This document shows, one piece after another, positions 2,657 through 22,380 of a stretch of DNA of 22,380 bases; within the stretch, counting starts at the first letter, position 1; every line of letters starts with the position of its first letter. Source of the stretch: a virus. Location: the IMG/VR virus record IMGVR_UViG_3300035228_001665, positions 1 through 22,380 of that record, one strand, 5' to 3'. The notes under the pieces were generated by a model that was not told the DNA's origin, did no database searches, and saw nothing but the letters and a program-made list of their open reading frames with translations. The position numbers were made by a program, and so were the translations under genes.

Positions 2657-2880
2657 TTGCGTGACTTCTTTTTAGTGGTTTTCCGTTGGTTGCTGATAAA
2701 ATCAACAGATTGTTTGTAAGTGCTTAGCACCTTTACTTGACTGCCATTATGTATAATCATGAACTTCTTACCGCATGGGACTGCTGCCCATGTCCCATCG
2801 TTGGTAACATAACCCAATGGATTTTTAGGTTTTGCATCAAGGATAGAAGGATAAGGAACGAAGGGTTTCAGAAATCCCAT
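2653..2880 (-). CDS. 75-aa protein with basic tail, function unknown
   Basis: The product begins MGFLKPFVPYPSILDAKPKN, continues with a beta-rich segment (WAAVPCGKKFMIIHNGSQVKVL) and ends in a strongly basic, probably disordered tail (NQRKTTKKKSRK) that might contact nucleic acid. It overlaps the upstream 46-aa gene by one base (TAATG) and the downstream 59-aa gene by four (ATGA). No motif of a known enzyme is present and I do not recognise the family. Confidence 0.75.
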   Translation of the reverse strand: MGFLKPFVPYPSILDAKPKNPLGYVTNDGTWAAVPCGKKFMIIHNGSQVKVLSTYKQSVDFISNQRKTTKKKSRK

Positions 2881-3020
2881 TAAAAAACAGCAGTAACGCT
2901 AACAATTGTGCATCCAGGGTTGCGTGCTAATGCAACATTCTTTGCATCTTGATAATCAACAGCAACGACAGTATCAGTGAAAACAGTGCCTGCCTTGAAC
3001 AGAGTGACTTTGCAACGCAT
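2880..3020 (-). CDS. 46-aa small protein, first gene of the purine chain
   Basis: This short gene of 47 codons encodes MRCKVTLFKAGTVFTDTV followed by a compact beta-helix-beta pattern (AVDYQDAKNVALARNPG, then CTIVSVTAVF). Very small proteins of this pattern are, as far as I recall, frequent in cyanophage genomes, without an assigned role. The start is 24 bases downstream of a TATAAT box and preceded by GAGAGAAA, a modest ribosome site. The stop overlaps the next start as TAATG. It appears to open the nine-gene unit running to purM. Confidence 0.7.
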   Translation of the reverse strand: MRCKVTLFKAGTVFTDTVVAVDYQDAKNVALARNPGCTIVSVTAVF

Positions 3021-3043
3021 GGTGGATTTCTCTCGGTGTTGTT

Positions 3044-3072
3044 ATTATAGCAGATCAGAGCGATCTGATGAA
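3044..3072 (-). promoter_or_regulatory. Sigma70-type promoter before the small-gene/purC/purM chain
   Basis: A perfect -10 TATAAT (3044-3049) lies 24 bases before the ATG at 3020. The hexamer 17 bases upstream is TTCATC (3067-3072), a weak -35. The -10 shares the extended sequence CTGCTATAATA with the box before the helicase gene at 4778-4783, which argues that both are real and co-regulated early promoters. Confidence 0.6.
3051..3069. promoter_or_regulatory. Palindromic element between -35 and -10
   Basis: ATCAGA and TCTGAT pair around a 4-base loop, and CAGATC and GATCTG give an alternative 6-bp stem over the same bases. The element spans the stop codon of the nuclease-like gene (3055-3057) and sits just upstream of the -10 box. 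It could be an operator or a small hairpin ending the helicase transcript; no T-run follows. Confidence 0.35.
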
Positions 3073-3579
3073 GGATAAATCAAAATCTTCAGATTCTCTA
3101 AAGTAATCACGCACTTCCTCCCGCTCCTCTAGGCGATTATAACCAGTGAGAAAGAAGTCAGAGGGTTCAGGATCTGAGCTTGCAGTTACACAAGCACCAT
3201 TGTCTCTAATGTTATAAAGTTTAGATGATGGAATGCAACATGCCTTGCCTTTCTTCACATCAGTGATAATAAAGTAGTCAGCAAGTTTGTCCTCATAGTC
3301 TCCTGCTTGACGACGATTCTTAAGAATCAATCCTCTCACTGCCATCTGAGACTTATTGCCAAATTGAGTTACTTTTGATTCGTAAGTTGTTTCATTGGGA
3401 CCAATCAAATCAATGCCAGGAAGATTTACTCTAGTCAGAAGACCATTGCTATACACATCGAGTGCTTTCTCTACAAGTTCTCCTGCTTTGGGATACCTTA
3501 GATTGTTGTCAGTGTAATCATGAATCGTTTCTAAGAGTTTAGATAAACGATCAAGTTGAAATGTGCTAAAGTCAATCAT
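3055..3579 (-). CDS. Putative PD-(D/E)xK-fold nuclease coupled to the helicase
   Basis: The 174-aa product shows a plausible PD-(D/E)xK layout: an early helix with E34 (KAGELVEKAL), then PGIDLIG with D57, then a strand with E67-S-K69 (TTYESKV), followed by a helix and strand (DYFIITDVKKGK). In this fold the Asp, Glu and Lys bind metal and cut DNA. The N-terminus looks helical and the C-terminus is acidic (REEVRDYFRESEDFD). The ATG overlaps the helicase stop as ATGA, so the two are made together and may act as a complex. The fold call rests on motif spacing alone. Alternatives are an inactive relative or an unrelated DNA-binding partner. Confidence 0.55.
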   Translation of the reverse strand: MIDFSTFQLDRLSKLLETIHDYTDNNLRYPKAGELVEKALDVYSNGLLTRVNLPGIDLIGPNETTYESKVTQFGNKSQMAVRGLILKNRRQAGDYEDKLADYFIITDVKKGKACCIPSSKLYNIRDNGACVTASSDPEPSDFFLTGYNRLEEREEVRDYFRESEDFDLSFIRSL

Positions 3580-4751
3580 CGACGAATAATAGAAATAGCG
3601 GGTTCACCTTGTTCAAAGACAGTATTAACAACTGCCTGAACGCTCCTTGCGGTGCTGATACCCACTTTATCAGCAACAGGAACACACACAAGACCATAAG
3701 TCTTCTGAGCGCCACCCAGACGGATTACACGCCCGATTGACTGAGAAATACCAATGTAGTCCATGTTACGCATGAACAGCACGGCATCAAGTCCCTTTAC
3801 GTTGATACCCTCAGAGAGGATAGAGTGGTGCATGATAACAAATTGAGTATCACTTTCACCCCAAGCATTAAGAGTCTTGAAAAACTCATGGCGGGTAACT
3901 TTCTGACCATTGATGATTGCACCAGTCTTGGATGTAATATACATCCAGTTATAACCACGCTGTTCCAGTTGGAAAGTGAAGTCAGACTGAGTAACAAGAC
4001 GGACAATCTGCTTCGTAGAACGAGCAGCAATCAGGATCTTGCTTGCTGTGTTATCATCAATGGTATCAATCAGATTCTTAGAATCAGACTGCTTGAAATC
4101 ACCTTGAGGAAGTTGAGTAAGACGAACAACAGGAGGAAGAATGTAACCCTGCTCCACAAGTTTAGGTGCAGGAACATTACAAATGACCTGACCATAAACA
4201 CGGGAATCATTCATTCCAGGTTTCCGAGGAGTGACTGAATGTTTAGGAGTTGCAGTAAAAAAATAGCAACGACGAGCGTACCTACTGTAAAATTCAGTAG
4301 GAACAAAGAAGTTACGCTGAACAGAGTTGTGCGCTTCATCAAAGTAGATAGTGTCTACATCAATACCAGACTGAACAATCTTCTCCAACGAATGATAAGT
4401 CGTGAAGATGATACAAGACTCACCCGCAGCGCGAGCAGTATTGTTGAACAACTGAATCTGCCTTGCTTTAGTAGTGCTGAAGAACTCAGTATCACCACTA
4501 TGAACGTGCATCACATGAACCAGATAGTCCTTAGGAAGCAGTTCCAGAAACTCTTTACAGAGTTGCTTAGCAAGGAGAATACGAGGAGCAACAACTACAG
4601 TAGTGTTGCAACCACGGTATTCATGACCCAGATAATCCTGAATCATGCAGATGGTTTTACCGCCACCCGTGGGGATGATGACCTGTCCTTTGTCGTGCTT
4701 CAGCATGGCATCAACTGCCTGTTGCTGATGTGGGCGAAGGGTAATGGTCAA
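3576..4751 (-). CDS. DEAH-box superfamily II DNA helicase, UvsW/ResIII-like
   Basis: A 391-aa helicase with all core motifs: LRPHQQQ (6-11) before motif I, Walker A PTGGGKT (27-33), DEAH (138-141), TATP (166-169), SEGINV (313-318) and motif VI QSIGRVIR (337-344). This places it with the UvsW/type III restriction-subunit helicases that unwind or anneal branched DNA and R-loops in T4. It lacks an N-terminal extension: the core starts almost at residue 1, so it is shorter than T4 UvsW (about 500 aa). The start appears to be TTG at 4751, since no in-frame ATG lies between the promoter and motif I. It is translationally coupled to the nuclease-like gene. Role could be replication/recombination or DNA restriction. 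Confidence 0.9.
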   Translation of the reverse strand: MTITLRPHQQQAVDAMLKHDKGQVIIPTGGGKTICMIQDYLGHEYRGCNTTVVVAPRILLAKQLCKEFLELLPKDYLVHVMHVHSGDTEFFSTTKARQIQLFNNTARAAGESCIIFTTYHSLEKIVQSGIDVDTIYFDEAHNSVQRNFFVPTEFYSRYARRCYFFTATPKHSVTPRKPGMNDSRVYGQVICNVPAPKLVEQGYILPPVVRLTQLPQGDFKQSDSKNLIDTIDDNTASKILIAARSTKQIVRLVTQSDFTFQLEQRGYNWMYITSKTGAIINGQKVTRHEFFKTLNAWGESDTQFVIMHHSILSEGINVKGLDAVLFMRNMDYIGISQSIGRVIRLGGAQKTYGLVCVPVADKVGISTARSVQAVVNTVFEQGEPAISIIRR

Positions 4752-4777: not shown

Positions 4778-4806
4778 ATTATAGCAGAAAACCACTCTCC
4801 AGACAA
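4778..4806 (-). promoter_or_regulatory. Sigma70-type promoter before the helicase gene
   Basis: The -10 is TATAAT (4778-4783) and the -35 is TTGTCT (4801-4806), with a 17-base spacer. The bases around the -10 (CTGCTATAATA) are the same as in the promoter at 3044. The helicase start follows 26 bases downstream. Confidence 0.65.
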
Positions 4807-4818
4807 CCCAGTAGACAG

Positions 4819-5307
4819 TTACTCATCTGGCACATATTTAACTGCTATTGTAAAACGATGCCTATCTCTATACGTTGTAGCGCGATGTAAGATATTAGAA
4901 TCAAAGTAAACCATACGATTTGGAACTGGAGGTACACCTGCAATCTGCCCATTCGCATAGAATTGTGTTTCACCACCAAGGTCTAAGTTCCACTCATCAG
5001 ATGAATAATATAAAAAAGTTATAGATCCTTCTTCATCACAATCAGTATGAAAATATGGATTTTCTGTGGGAGCAAAGCAGTTAATATACATCCTATCTAA
5101 GACAAGATTATCATCTACAATTAGATCTGTCTTGGAACTAAACAATTCATAAATCTCATCAGTCTCAGAAACTTCATGCACCATTCCTGTAGGTGGTGTA
5201 GAATTTGTATCCTTTTCACCATAGGTATATGATGCCATTTTACAATAATCAAATACTGAATTGGAATCATCTATGGATAAAAAATCATCAATAACTTCAA
5301 CAATCAT
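4819..5307 (-). CDS. 2-oxoglutarate/Fe(II)-dependent oxygenase, 162 aa
   Basis: The product has the double-stranded beta-helix signature of 2OG-Fe(II) oxygenases: HTD (H87, D89), distal His in NILHRAT (H141) and the 2OG-binding Arg in HRFTIAVKY (R151). A GGETQFY segment precedes the distal His, as in prolyl-4-hydroxylase-like members. These enzymes hydroxylate a substrate while turning 2-oxoglutarate and O2 into succinate and CO2. The gene is the last of the oxygenase cluster and overlaps the preceding oxygenase by 11 nt. The substrate cannot be read from the sequence; a protein side chain or a nucleotide are both possible. Confidence 0.88.
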   Translation of the reverse strand: MIVEVIDDFLSIDDSNSVFDYCKMASYTYGEKDTNSTPPTGMVHEVSETDEIYELFSSKTDLIVDDNLVLDRMYINCFAPTENPYFHTDCDEEGSITFLYYSSDEWNLDLGGETQFYANGQIAGVPPVPNRMVYFDSNILHRATTYRDRHRFTIAVKYVPDE

Positions 5308-5917
5308 ATTTTGTGACCTTAAAATTAAATGAAAGTGTAATCCTCGGAGTATTACAAACTTTTTGTGGAAAAATTCTATGTTCTAGATATGCTGGAAACA
5401 TAATTAAGTCCCCTTCTTCTACAGTGGGAAGAAAATAATTTCCAACAAAATCTCTATTAAGAGTCAAACTATGTGCTCTTATTGCTGATATAGGATCACG
5501 AAATTCTGTTGCTGTATGCACTTCTTTATCATAAGACAGATAATGAACACAAGAGAAATGAATTTTTTCAAAAGGATCTGCTATGTGTTCGTGTAATTCT
5601 TGATATGAATCTTTTTCGTAATAGTTATACCAAATACCATCGACAATTTCCCAAGCGACTTCTTTATCGAATAACTCAGTTATTGCTTCACTATAGAAAT
5701 CAGTCAATATAGAATTATTTTCTTCAGTGAAAACTTCCTTTCCTTTTGGTTCAGACTCAAAAGATGTTCTTAAATTATCAGTTGCCCAATGTTTGGGTAT
5801 GTCTAATTCTGGTATTGCCTTTTTTATTTTAGGAACAAGTAATTCCTTTAAGTAATCATTATCACTTACACTTGTATGATATATTGTTAAAGGAAATATA
5901 TTATAAGATACAGCCAT
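5297..5917 (-). CDS. 2OG-Fe(II) oxygenase of the TIGR02466-like type
   Basis: With the ATG at 5917 the product has 206 residues. Putative iron ligands are in YQELHEHIADP (H109/H111 or D114) and FPAYLEHRIFP (H180), with the 2OG-binding Arg in TPRITLSFNF (R192). The C-terminal pattern 'FP..L.H...P......RI..SFN' resembles the TIGR02466 family of putative 2OG oxygenases. The frame also allows a TTG at 5938, seven codons earlier, but the ATG fits better with the promoter at 5939-5967. It overlaps the next oxygenase gene by 11 nt. The exact first iron ligands are less clear than in the other cluster members. Substrate unknown. Confidence 0.82.
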   Translation of the reverse strand: MAVSYNIFPLTIYHTSVSDNDYLKELLVPKIKKAIPELDIPKHWATDNLRTSFESEPKGKEVFTEENNSILTDFYSEAITELFDKEVAWEIVDGIWYNYYEKDSYQELHEHIADPFEKIHFSCVHYLSYDKEVHTATEFRDPISAIRAHSLTLNRDFVGNYFLPTVEEGDLIMFPAYLEHRIFPQKVCNTPRITLSFNFKVTKYDC

Positions 5918-5938
5918 CTCTTCAAAAGCAACAAACAA

Positions 5939-5967
5939 AGTTTACTCGTAATTTGGAATCTTGTCAA
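5939..5967 (-). promoter_or_regulatory. Sigma70-type promoter inside the oxygenase cluster
   Basis: TTGACA (5962-5967), a perfect -35, is followed after 17 bases by TAAACT (5939-5944), a 4-of-6 match to -10. The ATG at 5917 is 21 bases further on. The -35 overlaps the stop codon of the previous oxygenase gene. It may allow early expression of the last two oxygenases apart from the upstream ones. Confidence 0.5.
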
Positions 5968-6584
5968 GTTATTTTGTTTCCAAAGAAAGATGTGATAGAA
6001 TATCTACCATATCCATCGCAGTAATCGGAGTCTTTAATAGAAACTTCTGATACACCATGCTCCACCCATCCAGGCATCATTATGACTGAGTTATTAGGAC
6101 AATCAAACTCATAATCATATTTGGGGAATATCAAGTTTCCACCAGTATATTTTTTTGGTTCTTTATGGAAGTAAGAAAATGCTAGAAATTGCATAGCTCT
6201 ATCAACATGTGGTTTGTAATACTCCCCATCGTGGTAGTATCTAACCTTAGTGCAGTCCCAATCAGAATCTTTTGCTATACTGCAACAATCATGAGTTTCT
6301 GAAAATAATTCTAAAAGTGAATCATCAAAAATTTTTCTATTTGTAATTAAAATATCTGATACTCCCCTATGTTCTTCTTGATAGACATCATCAAGTAGAA
6401 GAGCATGGGCATTTGTTTTATCGACAACTCCACCATAATCTTTTGCAGGTAAAAGTTTTCCTGGTTTTGTATAAAATTTAAGTTCTTCCCATATAAGATC
6501 TAGTTCTTCTTGATTGTAAAAATTATAGAGTATTAAATGTGGAAAAGGTTCTGTAAATTGTGATGCTTCAATAGTTTCAGACAT
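5964..6584 (-). CDS. 2OG-Fe(II) oxygenase, 206 aa
   Basis: Clear 2OG-Fe(II) signature: YKPHVDRAMQF (H126, D128), GGNLIFP before the far strand, distal His in MMPGWVEHGVSEV (H176) and Arg in GRYSITSFF (R194). The first half (FPHLILYNFYNQEELDLIWEEL) resembles the helical lead-in of prolyl-4-hydroxylase-like enzymes. The start ATG has a nearby purine-rich stretch (TTAGAGA). It lies 11 nt after a 156-aa gene and just before the promoter at 5939. Despite equal length it is clearly divergent from the neighbouring oxygenases, so recent tandem duplication is unlikely. Substrate unknown. Confidence 0.9.
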   Translation of the reverse strand: MSETIEASQFTEPFPHLILYNFYNQEELDLIWEELKFYTKPGKLLPAKDYGGVVDKTNAHALLLDDVYQEEHRGVSDILITNRKIFDDSLLELFSETHDCCSIAKDSDWDCTKVRYYHDGEYYKPHVDRAMQFLAFSYFHKEPKKYTGGNLIFPKYDYEFDCPNNSVIMMPGWVEHGVSEVSIKDSDYCDGYGRYSITSFFGNKIT

Positions 6585-7066: not shown

Positions 7067-7413
7067 AGTTCAATTCTCCTCATTTTGATTGGATATTTAG
7101 GTCTGGAAAAATATTTTCCTTCTACTACTTTTCCAACTAATTGATCTAGATTTAGATCTTCAGATTCTACAACCTCTGGATGATTGTCTTCATGTGTTGT
7201 CCTCGCTTTTATTTGTTTTTCAACTTGACGTAAAGCATATTTTCTTGTGAGGGAATCTGTAAATGACGCCATATCGTGCATATCTAGATCACTACAGTTG
7301 ATAGACCAATCTAGATAATCATCAATCGAACAATCAGACTTTTGATCACAGAACTTGACTTCTATTCTATTTTCTTCTGGATAGTATGCTACTATCTTAA
7401 AAATCGGATTCAT
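7063..7413 (-). CDS. 116-aa protein in the oxygenase cluster, function unknown
   Basis: I take the ATG at 7413 (MNPIFKIVAYYPEENRIEVKF) as the start; the frame is open to a TTG at 7461, but this would overlap the upstream oxygenase by 65 nt. With the ATG the overlap is 17 nt. The N-terminus forms a beta-hairpin-like stretch, then an acidic part (DCSIDDYLDWSINCSDLDMHD) and a helical Arg/Lys-rich region (TRKYALRQVEKQIKAR). The C-terminal tail is PKYPIKMRRIEL. The stop overlaps the next GTG start. No family is recognised. Confidence 0.7.
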   Translation of the reverse strand: MNPIFKIVAYYPEENRIEVKFCDQKSDCSIDDYLDWSINCSDLDMHDMASFTDSLTRKYALRQVEKQIKARTTHEDNHPEVVESEDLNLDQLVGKVVEGKYFSRPKYPIKMRRIEL

Positions 7414-7978
7414 TTTGTTGAATAACCCCCCATGATGTTGCAATATACTTATCTCCACCAAAAGGTGGATTACCTCTATGAGTATGTGTATATGAAGCAG
7501 GAAAAATAATAAGGTCTCCTGCTACAGATTCTTCCCTTCTTTGTTGGTATAAAAATTCCGTTTCACCACCATCAAAGTCATCATTCAAATATAGTTGAAC
7601 GACAAACTGTCTAGCAGCAACAGACAACGATCCATTCTCATAATGCCAATTATGAAATCCTCCACCAGCAGGAATCTTTTTTAGTTTTAGATCGTGAAGT
7701 AAAAACTTCTTAGATCTTAGAATACTTATCGATTCAAGATATTCTGTTACACAGGGCTTGAAACCTGGAAAAAGCATCGTCGCAAGTTTACTTGATGCTC
7801 CAAGATCATAGTCGTGAGTAACATTAACTATCTTATGATCTTCCAACTCTAAAGCACTTCTATCATACTCTAGTATTTGATTATCCTCAAAAAAGTTGAT
7901 ATAATTAATTATTTCCTTACATTCATCTCTCGAAAAGGCACCACGATACCTTCTAATCAAGTCAGATTCAAATGCCAT
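7397..7978 (-). CDS. Prolyl-4-hydroxylase-like 2OG-Fe(II) oxygenase, 193 aa
   Basis: This protein carries the strongest P4H-like pattern of the cluster: FHNWHYENG (H112, E114 in HxE form instead of the common HxD), then LYLNDDFDGGETEF, a hallmark of P4H-like domains, then PASYTHTHRGNPPFGGDKYIATSW with distal H165/H167 and K177 in the position that binds 2-oxoglutarate. The family hydroxylates proline or related residues in proteins. Its ATG is 19 bases after an AATAAATA late-like box and its gene directly follows the glycine-rich adhesin gene, which makes a late-made virion protein a possible substrate. That link is inference. Confidence 0.9.
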   Translation of the reverse strand: MAFESDLIRRYRGAFSRDECKEIINYINFFEDNQILEYDRSALELEDHKIVNVTHDYDLGASSKLATMLFPGFKPCVTEYLESISILRSKKFLLHDLKLKKIPAGGGFHNWHYENGSLSVAARQFVVQLYLNDDFDGGETEFLYQQRREESVAGDLIIFPASYTHTHRGNPPFGGDKYIATSWGVIQQNESDF

Positions 7979-21759: not shown

Positions 21760-21766
21760 TATTTAG
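21760..21766 (-). promoter_or_regulatory. Late-like box CTAAATA
   Basis: CTAAATA lies 17 bases before the ATG at 21742 and overlaps the stop codon of the previous gene. It may be a late promoter variant. Confidence 0.3.
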
Positions 21767-22380
21767 TATCCGCCACCATAACTTGGTGGTGGAGACGGTG
21801 TTGGAGTTGGTGTGGGAGTTGGTGTGGGAGTTGGAGTTGGAGTTGGTGTAGGTACTGAACTAACGCCTCCGCCACTAGATGTAGTGGTTGTAGTTGTAGT
21901 GGGTGCAGTGGTAGTGGTTTCGGTGGTAGTTTCAGATGTGGTTGATGTTTGAATAATTTGAGTTGTTGTACTTACAGGTCTGGATGCAGCAAGACTTTCT
22001 GCTGAACTATTATAGATGTATTGATGTGGAGTTGATACATGTTTAGCACCAACCATCTTTCTTCCAGTTGTTGGATGTACGTGGAATGGACCATAGTATG
22101 GTTTTCCATTTACATATCCAACAAGATCATCATCTTTGGAAATACAATCAATGACCTGTCTAATAATACCCTGAGGATCATCAGGTCTGACTATCAATTT
22201 GGGTTCTAATAGTGCTCCAGAACCTCTTTTAGACTTAATCGTATATTCAAGAGGATCATTGATTGACGGAAACTTCATTTCTTCTGACACTTCACCAGTC
22301 TCAGGATCTTTGATGATTTCTGGAAGTTTAATTACTCTAATTACTCCACCATTAGTATCAACTTGAATATTATATTTGTC
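21763..22380 (-). CDS. Virion protein with Thr-rich and Pro-Thr tail, N-terminus outside window
   Basis: The frame is open to the window edge: 30 codons (DKYNIQVDTNGGVIRVIKLP...) precede the first GTG at 22290, so the gene almost certainly starts beyond 22380. About 205 residues are visible. The central part holds NGKPYYGPFHVHPTTGRKM followed by VGAKHVSTPHQYIY, with several His; I recall similar segments in cyanophage structural proteins but cannot name the family. Then come a Thr-rich region, about nine Pro-Thr pairs and the end SPPPSYGGGY. The tail is surely extended and disordered, like a flexible linker. It is the first gene of the structural chain here and likely a tail or baseplate component. 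Confidence 0.78.
   Translation of the reverse strand, partial: DKYNIQVDTNGGVIRVIKLPEIIKDPETGEVSEEMKFPSINDPLEYTIKSKRGSGALLEPKLIVRPDDPQGIIRQVIDCISKDDDLVGYVNGKPYYGPFHVHPTTGRKMVGAKHVSTPHQYIYNSSAESLAASRPVSTTTQIIQTSTTSETTTETTTTAPTTTTTTTSSGGGVSSVPTPTPTPTPTPTPTPTPTPSPPPSYGGGY
21797..21854 (-). repeat. Hexanucleotide repeat encoding a Pro-Thr tract
   Basis: About nine imperfect 6-base units (on the plus strand GGAGTT/GGTGTG-like) encode consecutive Pro-Thr pairs at the end of the protein. Third-position variation keeps the peptide while breaking the DNA repeat. Such tracts can change length by slippage in steps of two residues. Confidence 0.85.

Follow-up and report, generated by a model that had tools for sequence, protein, structure and literature searches.

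A predicted PD-(D/E)xK nuclease gene as an optional, mobile cassette behind the UvsW-type helicase gene of T4-like cyanophages

Overview

The window analysed here is a 22,380-bp virus stretch of the T4-like cyanophage type. In it, a gene for a 174-aa protein lies directly behind a UvsW-type helicase gene, and this gene is an optional, laterally mobile cassette that is parked at that position in cyanophages. From its conserved motif and its predicted fold, the protein can almost certainly be counted among the PD-(D/E)xK nucleases, and it presumably cleaves DNA. Since the gene comes and goes between related viruses, it has the look of a mobile nuclease and not of one half of a two-part machine. 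Our leading interpretation is a free-standing, homing-like, site-specific endonuclease, for which we see about an even chance; its cleavage, its target and its repair-driven transfer are all putative.

The locus and its helicase

The features of the locus are the following.

2880-3020, minus strand: 46-aa gene (MRCKVTLF...), found directly 3' of the helicase in nuclease-free relatives
3021-3575, minus strand: extent of the insert in the alignment with the empty site L138, made up of the nuclease body and the TGCTATAAT element
3044-3052, minus strand: extended -10-like element TGCTATAAT in the interval between the nuclease and the next gene, read from the sequence
3055-3579, minus strand: predicted PD-(D/E)xK-type endonuclease gene (the cassette), 174 aa, ATG start, with invariant E37, D57, E67 and K69
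3373-3381, minus strand: codons of E67-S68-K69 (motif YESK), invariant, in model strand 65-70 and paired with E68-x-K70 of PvuII
3409-3411, minus strand: codon of D57 (motif GIDL), invariant in the alignment and paired weakly by hhalign with D58 of PvuII
3469-3471, minus strand: codon of E37, an invariant Glu within helix 26-43
3576-3579, minus strand: ATGA stop/start overlap of 4 nt between helicase and nuclease, a general feature of the slot behind the helicase
3576-4751, minus strand: UvsW-type SF2 DNA helicase gene (T4-GC 36), the conserved neighbour, 391 aa, TTG start, with Pfam and PHROG 16 matches
4778-4806, minus strand: plausible sigma-70-like promoter 5' of the helicase, TTGTCT-17-TATAAT with an extended -10 (10/12 matches, TG before the -10)

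The preliminary description placed two open reading frames at 3576-4751 and 3055-3579 with an overlap of 4 nt at 3576-3579, and these coordinates are exact. It also named the larger product a DEAH-box helicase, and that the product is a helicase is confirmed by matches to the Pfam domains ResIII (1.8e-18), DEAD (1.6e-14) and Helicase_C (1.3e-5) and to PHROG 16, “DNA helicase” (5.3e-63). With its SF2 motifs and these family matches, the protein belongs to the UvsW type. The matching group T4-GC 36 is annotated as helicase or UvsW, and relatives are present in 419 phage records, almost all of them from cyanophages. The N-terminus is indeed short, as had been described, but this is ordinary here: in S-SM1, Syn19, P-SSM2 and S-SKS1 the helicases annotated as T4-GC 36 type likewise have only about 395-415 aa.

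As for the early-type promoter that had been attributed to the two genes, the site exists and ranks first among 7 in its region, although shuffled sequences are expected to contain 7.3 by chance. A promoter at this position is plausible, while as a class such sites are at chance level in number. Elements resembling the one at 3044-3052 are found at many related loci, with the nuclease present or absent.

Elsewhere in the window, several neighbouring ORFs (4819-5307, 5297-5938, 5964-6584 and 7397-7978) resemble 2OG-Fe(II) oxygenases by eye, and genes for such enzymes are annotated near the same helicase in Sf-CH5 and S-CAM9. The end of the window holds an open-ended ORF (21763-22380) that finishes in a long Thr-Pro repeat tract.

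Family, conservation and predicted fold of the small protein

The small ORF is real, because more than 100 homologous stretches are present in IMG/VR and the dN/dS of the gene is about 0.08-0.17. Such purifying selection means that the nuclease is kept functional. No family match was obtained in Pfam, PHROG or PADLOC; known homing endonuclease families gave no Pfam, PHROG or PDB sequence match either, and a pattern search of the genome collection found no bacterial or archaeal homologues. Among isolates the sole relative is in S-SM1 (two accessions), and a profile search of 16 complete isolate genomes found the nuclease in one of them. The S-SM1 protein, SSM1_072 (T4-GC 1436; UniProt E3SI79), is annotated only as hypothetical. 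It is diverged, with 34.9% identity, but shares the motif, lies directly behind the S-SM1 helicase as well, and its predicted structure superposes on that of the 174-aa protein with a TM of 0.91.

In an alignment of 40 sequences, reaching down to the S-SM1 protein at 35% identity, D57, E67 and K69 are invariant, which gives the conserved D...(D/E)xK motif of the PD-(D/E)xK superfamily. The same is true of G55, S68 and the Glu at position 37 in the N-terminal helix. The preliminary description had proposed an E34...D57...E67xK69 layout; its last three residues stand, whereas E34 varies and the N-terminal Glu is E37.

When AlphaFold was given nothing but close homologues, the resulting model was of low quality (pLDDT 54). 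Once the alignment was extended by S-SM1-type relatives, with S-SM1 itself taken from its IMG/VR locus, AF2 gave a confident model with a pLDDT of 89.3 and a pTM of 0.85. It has a helix at residues 26-43, a strand at 56-59 that carries D57, and a strand at 65-70 that carries E67 and K69. The top PDB neighbours in Foldseek are DpnI, NhoI, NaeI, Eco15I, PvuII, SPARDA nucleases and I-Ssp6803I, mostly PD-(D/E)xK enzymes. The best match has an E of 3.3e-3 and a TM of about 0.37 and none is significant singly, so that the restriction-endonuclease-like fold is indicated by these neighbours collectively. In the viral structure library the S-SM1 homologue and two others pass an E of 0.001. The nuclease fold, which had been inferred from residue spacing, therefore survives with a conserved motif, a confident model and mainly restriction-type structural neighbours.

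The spacing in PvuII, D58-x9-E68-x-K70, equals the D57-x9-E67-x-K69 of the 174-aa protein; we take D58, E68 and K70 to be the active-site residues of PvuII, whose query sequence agrees fully with the PDB entry. A direct profile comparison by hhalign puts the catalytic residues in register with a probability of 0.9% and an E of 0.065, and this alignment is an illustration, no evidence of homology. PvuII, DpnI, NaeI and NhoI/Eco15I are type II restriction endonucleases, from which the 174-aa protein differs in having no significant sequence relation to them and no dedicated cognate methylase. I-Ssp6803I, a PD-(D/E)xK homing endonuclease of a cyanobacterial group I intron, is likewise a small nuclease, but it is intron-encoded, its structural score is weak and a sequence match is absent.

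A structure-selective nuclease similar to Holliday-junction resolvases, or a catalytically dead DNA-binding protein, is very unlikely in our view. Sulfolobus Hjc was matched by the early low-quality model, but it does not figure in the first 50 hits of the confident one, and the sporadic occurrence of the gene speaks against an essential resolvase. The invariant catalytic residues speak against a dead protein.

Distribution and mobility of the cassette

Each search covered up to its best 80 loci, and the proportions given here describe the retrieved sequences. Among the matches listed, 56 distinct nuclease sequences have a determinable context. The gene is directly behind the helicase (within 90 nt) in 50 of these, and 31 of the 50 have the 4-nt overlap. 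The others are five at a second, rarer junction, between the clamp-loader gene 44 and dam, and one displaced by 295 nt behind the helicase. Outside the 56 are two sequences with too little upstream sequence, and L066, which falls in none of the classes.

A different picture is seen from the side of the helicase. Among the matches listed, the nuclease is present in only 3 of 51 loci whose helicases are the most similar. The closest view of an empty site is given by L138, where the helicase is 91% identical to that of the window and its stop codon is followed, after 6 nt, by a homologue of the window gene at 2880-3020. Syn19 is in turn the empty site for S-SM1, with the T4-GC 36 helicase and the downstream GC 956/957 common to both isolates. 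The nuclease gene is thus optional: conserved genes lie on either side of it, and close relatives have the site empty.

In nuclease-free loci the slot behind the helicase is taken by methylases, a deaminase-like ORF and many other unrelated genes. In several of these loci (e.g. L160, L167, L201 and L209) the start of the unrelated gene likewise falls within the helicase stop codon and gives an identical 4-nt overlap. The operon reading of this overlap is tempting and has to be corrected, as an overlap in the helicase slot says nothing of partnership.

Furthermore, the nuclease has moved independently of its neighbours. Between the window and L012 the DNA identity is 91% in the nuclease, while it is 66% and 76% in the two halves of the helicase and 62% and 68% in the next two genes. 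The same island of identity at the nuclease, between diverged neighbours, is seen when L023 and L079 are compared with the window. In L015/L073 a fair similarity (84%) extends to the first downstream gene as well, and exchange tracts therefore vary. At four-fold degenerate sites of the window and L012, 55/67 are identical in the nuclease (0.82) against 66/134 in the helicase (0.49; Fisher p = 7e-6), and five further comparisons go in the same direction with p from 5e-4 to 0.06. These pairs were picked for similar nucleases, so they are evidence that separate exchange happens and not of its frequency. Across 39 representatives the nuclease and helicase protein identities correlate (Spearman 0.81) and the median four-fold identities are nearly equal, 0.45 and 0.48; much of the history of the two genes is therefore shared or saturated.

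These results bear on the two-gene helicase-nuclease unit of the preliminary description, a working pair that would degrade DNA or process recombination intermediates. The conserved adjacency of the nuclease, its frequent translational overlap and the correlated protein identities favour such a pair, but shared phylogeny, too, would lead one to expect that correlation, and unrelated genes occupy the slot with an identical overlap. The helicase is widespread on its own, nearly all of its 419 phage records being nuclease-free, and empty sites such as L138 exist. Recent histories of the two genes are separate in several contigs, and the five gp44-dam sequences, among the matches listed, place the nuclease away from the helicase altogether. 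Joint inheritance is therefore not what we observe, and the unit is not supported; a working pair is improbable. Conservation of the gene pair across cyanophages, on which the unit had been staked, is found for the nuclease, which mostly adjoins the helicase, but not for the helicase. Homologues that never adjoin it had been named as contrary evidence, and the gp44-dam homologues supply part of it.

Two observations on individual contigs concern the same junction. In L086 / L037 (a 231-kb contig) the helicase before the nuclease seems to be without roughly residues 244-295 and the nuclease without its first 11 residues, by assembly error or real decay. In IMGVR_UViG_3300030085_000087 (L041, L154) the sequence behind one helicase is nuclease-free, whereas a second helicase tail, a short distance further along, is followed by the nuclease; the two alleles may have been joined in one scaffold. 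Separately, a 766-aa ORF just 3' of the nuclease in L136 (6703-9003) is ATPase/helicase-like by eye.

Methylases and site avoidance

The main alternative to homing is a restriction-type endonuclease that would destroy host or rival phage DNA without phage methylation, with the near-universal Dam or another phage methylase guarding the phage's own genome. We regard this as possible but rather unlikely. Most of the folds nearest to the 174-aa model are restriction enzymes, which agrees with such a role. In 4 contigs that include the 3' end of the nuclease gene, its stop codon region shares 4 nt with the beginning of a D12-class adenine methylase gene, and a D12 methylase is present in the two largest nuclease contigs and in S-SM1. 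However, nearly all T4-like cyanophages have the D12 dam, whether they carry the nuclease or not, usually in the order gp44-dam-gp62; the contact between nuclease and dam may therefore reflect the insertion site only, and may be incidental. In the 2.5 kb downstream of the helicase, a methylase is present in 6/24 loci with the nuclease and 4/30 without it, no significant enrichment (p = 0.31), and apart from the D12 dam no methylase is common to all carriers.

A restriction arrangement is known by annotation from other cyanophages, as Syn19 and ACG-2014j encode an R.RsaI-annotated endonuclease whose gene overlaps that of a methylase. This is also a small protein of T4-like cyanophages, with weak structural resemblance to the 174-aa protein; it differs in being directly paired with its own methylase. 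Kinship between the 174-aa protein and the Syn19 protein was considered and dropped, the profile comparison being negative. In L092 (6522-9564) one replication cluster has a D12-class dam directly behind the nuclease and, about 2 kb further, an N6_N4_Mtase that is 79% identical to the R.RsaI-paired methylase of Syn19.

In terms of site avoidance, no 4-bp palindrome is absent throughout the nuclease carriers. Among 6-bp palindromes in the pooled carriers, zero counts occur only where the expectation is low or non-carriers are depleted too, and CAGCTG is equal in carriers and non-carriers. This absence of avoidance fits a long, rare target or protected self DNA and decides neither.

GTAC has 0 occurrences in 100 kb of S-SM1 against 278 expected (L303-L307). 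Self-avoidance by the S-SM1 nuclease was dropped as a cause, as the nuclease-free Syn1 is also without GTAC (0 in 20 kb against 71 expected, L335). Host restriction is probably the simpler cause in both. GTAC is present in Syn19 (L215/L296), which carries the R.RsaI-annotated endonuclease and its overlapping methylase. S-SM2 (L337) has 0 CTAG in 20 kb against 35 expected, and other sampled phages differ.

A proposed homing-like endonuclease

A homing-like role is favoured because free-standing homing genes show this very pattern: the nuclease gene is optional, occupies a fixed junction and moves apart from its neighbours (PMC6083498). Such genes are optional and lie between two conserved genes, one of which gets cut (PMC6083498), and phage homing genes often adjoin essential genes (PMC10448857). 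In T4, SegE is located at inh/uvsW and has uvsW as its cleavage target (PMC2988022). SegE is thus an optional gene beside uvsW, as the 174-aa nuclease gene is beside the UvsW-type helicase; it is, however, a GIY-YIG enzyme, and the 174-aa protein is of PD-(D/E)xK type with a putative homing role. F-CphI of cyanophage S-PM2 is another free-standing endonuclease gene of a T4-like cyanophage and adjoins its target gene, psbA (PMC6083498), but it has an Endo VII/DHHRN catalytic motif and belongs to an unrelated family.

Under the homing reading, the nuclease would be made early in infection, together with the helicase. In a co-infecting phage without the cassette it would then cleave a long, specific target at the corresponding locus or close to it, and recombination repair of the break would copy the cassette, along with a stretch of flanking DNA, into that phage's genome.

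Against homing, the protein is small and single-domain, with no recognisable separate DNA-binding module, and the solved structures closest to it belong mostly to restriction enzymes, at the weak scores given above. Phages shuffle genes in the helicase slot anyway, so mobility alone is no proof that the nuclease drives it. Comparison of the helicase 3' end between carriers and non-carriers gave no clear gradient of co-conversion.

Lastly, with more reserve, we suggest that this might be the first free-standing phage homing endonuclease family on a PD-(D/E)xK restriction fold, occupying the uvsW niche of SegE in marine T4-like cyanophages. The analysis assigns a likely function to a cyanophage gene family that had no annotation and has more than 100 copies in environmental data. 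If the homing reading is true, restriction-fold nucleases would be among the drivers of gene exchange at the core replication loci of abundant marine phages.
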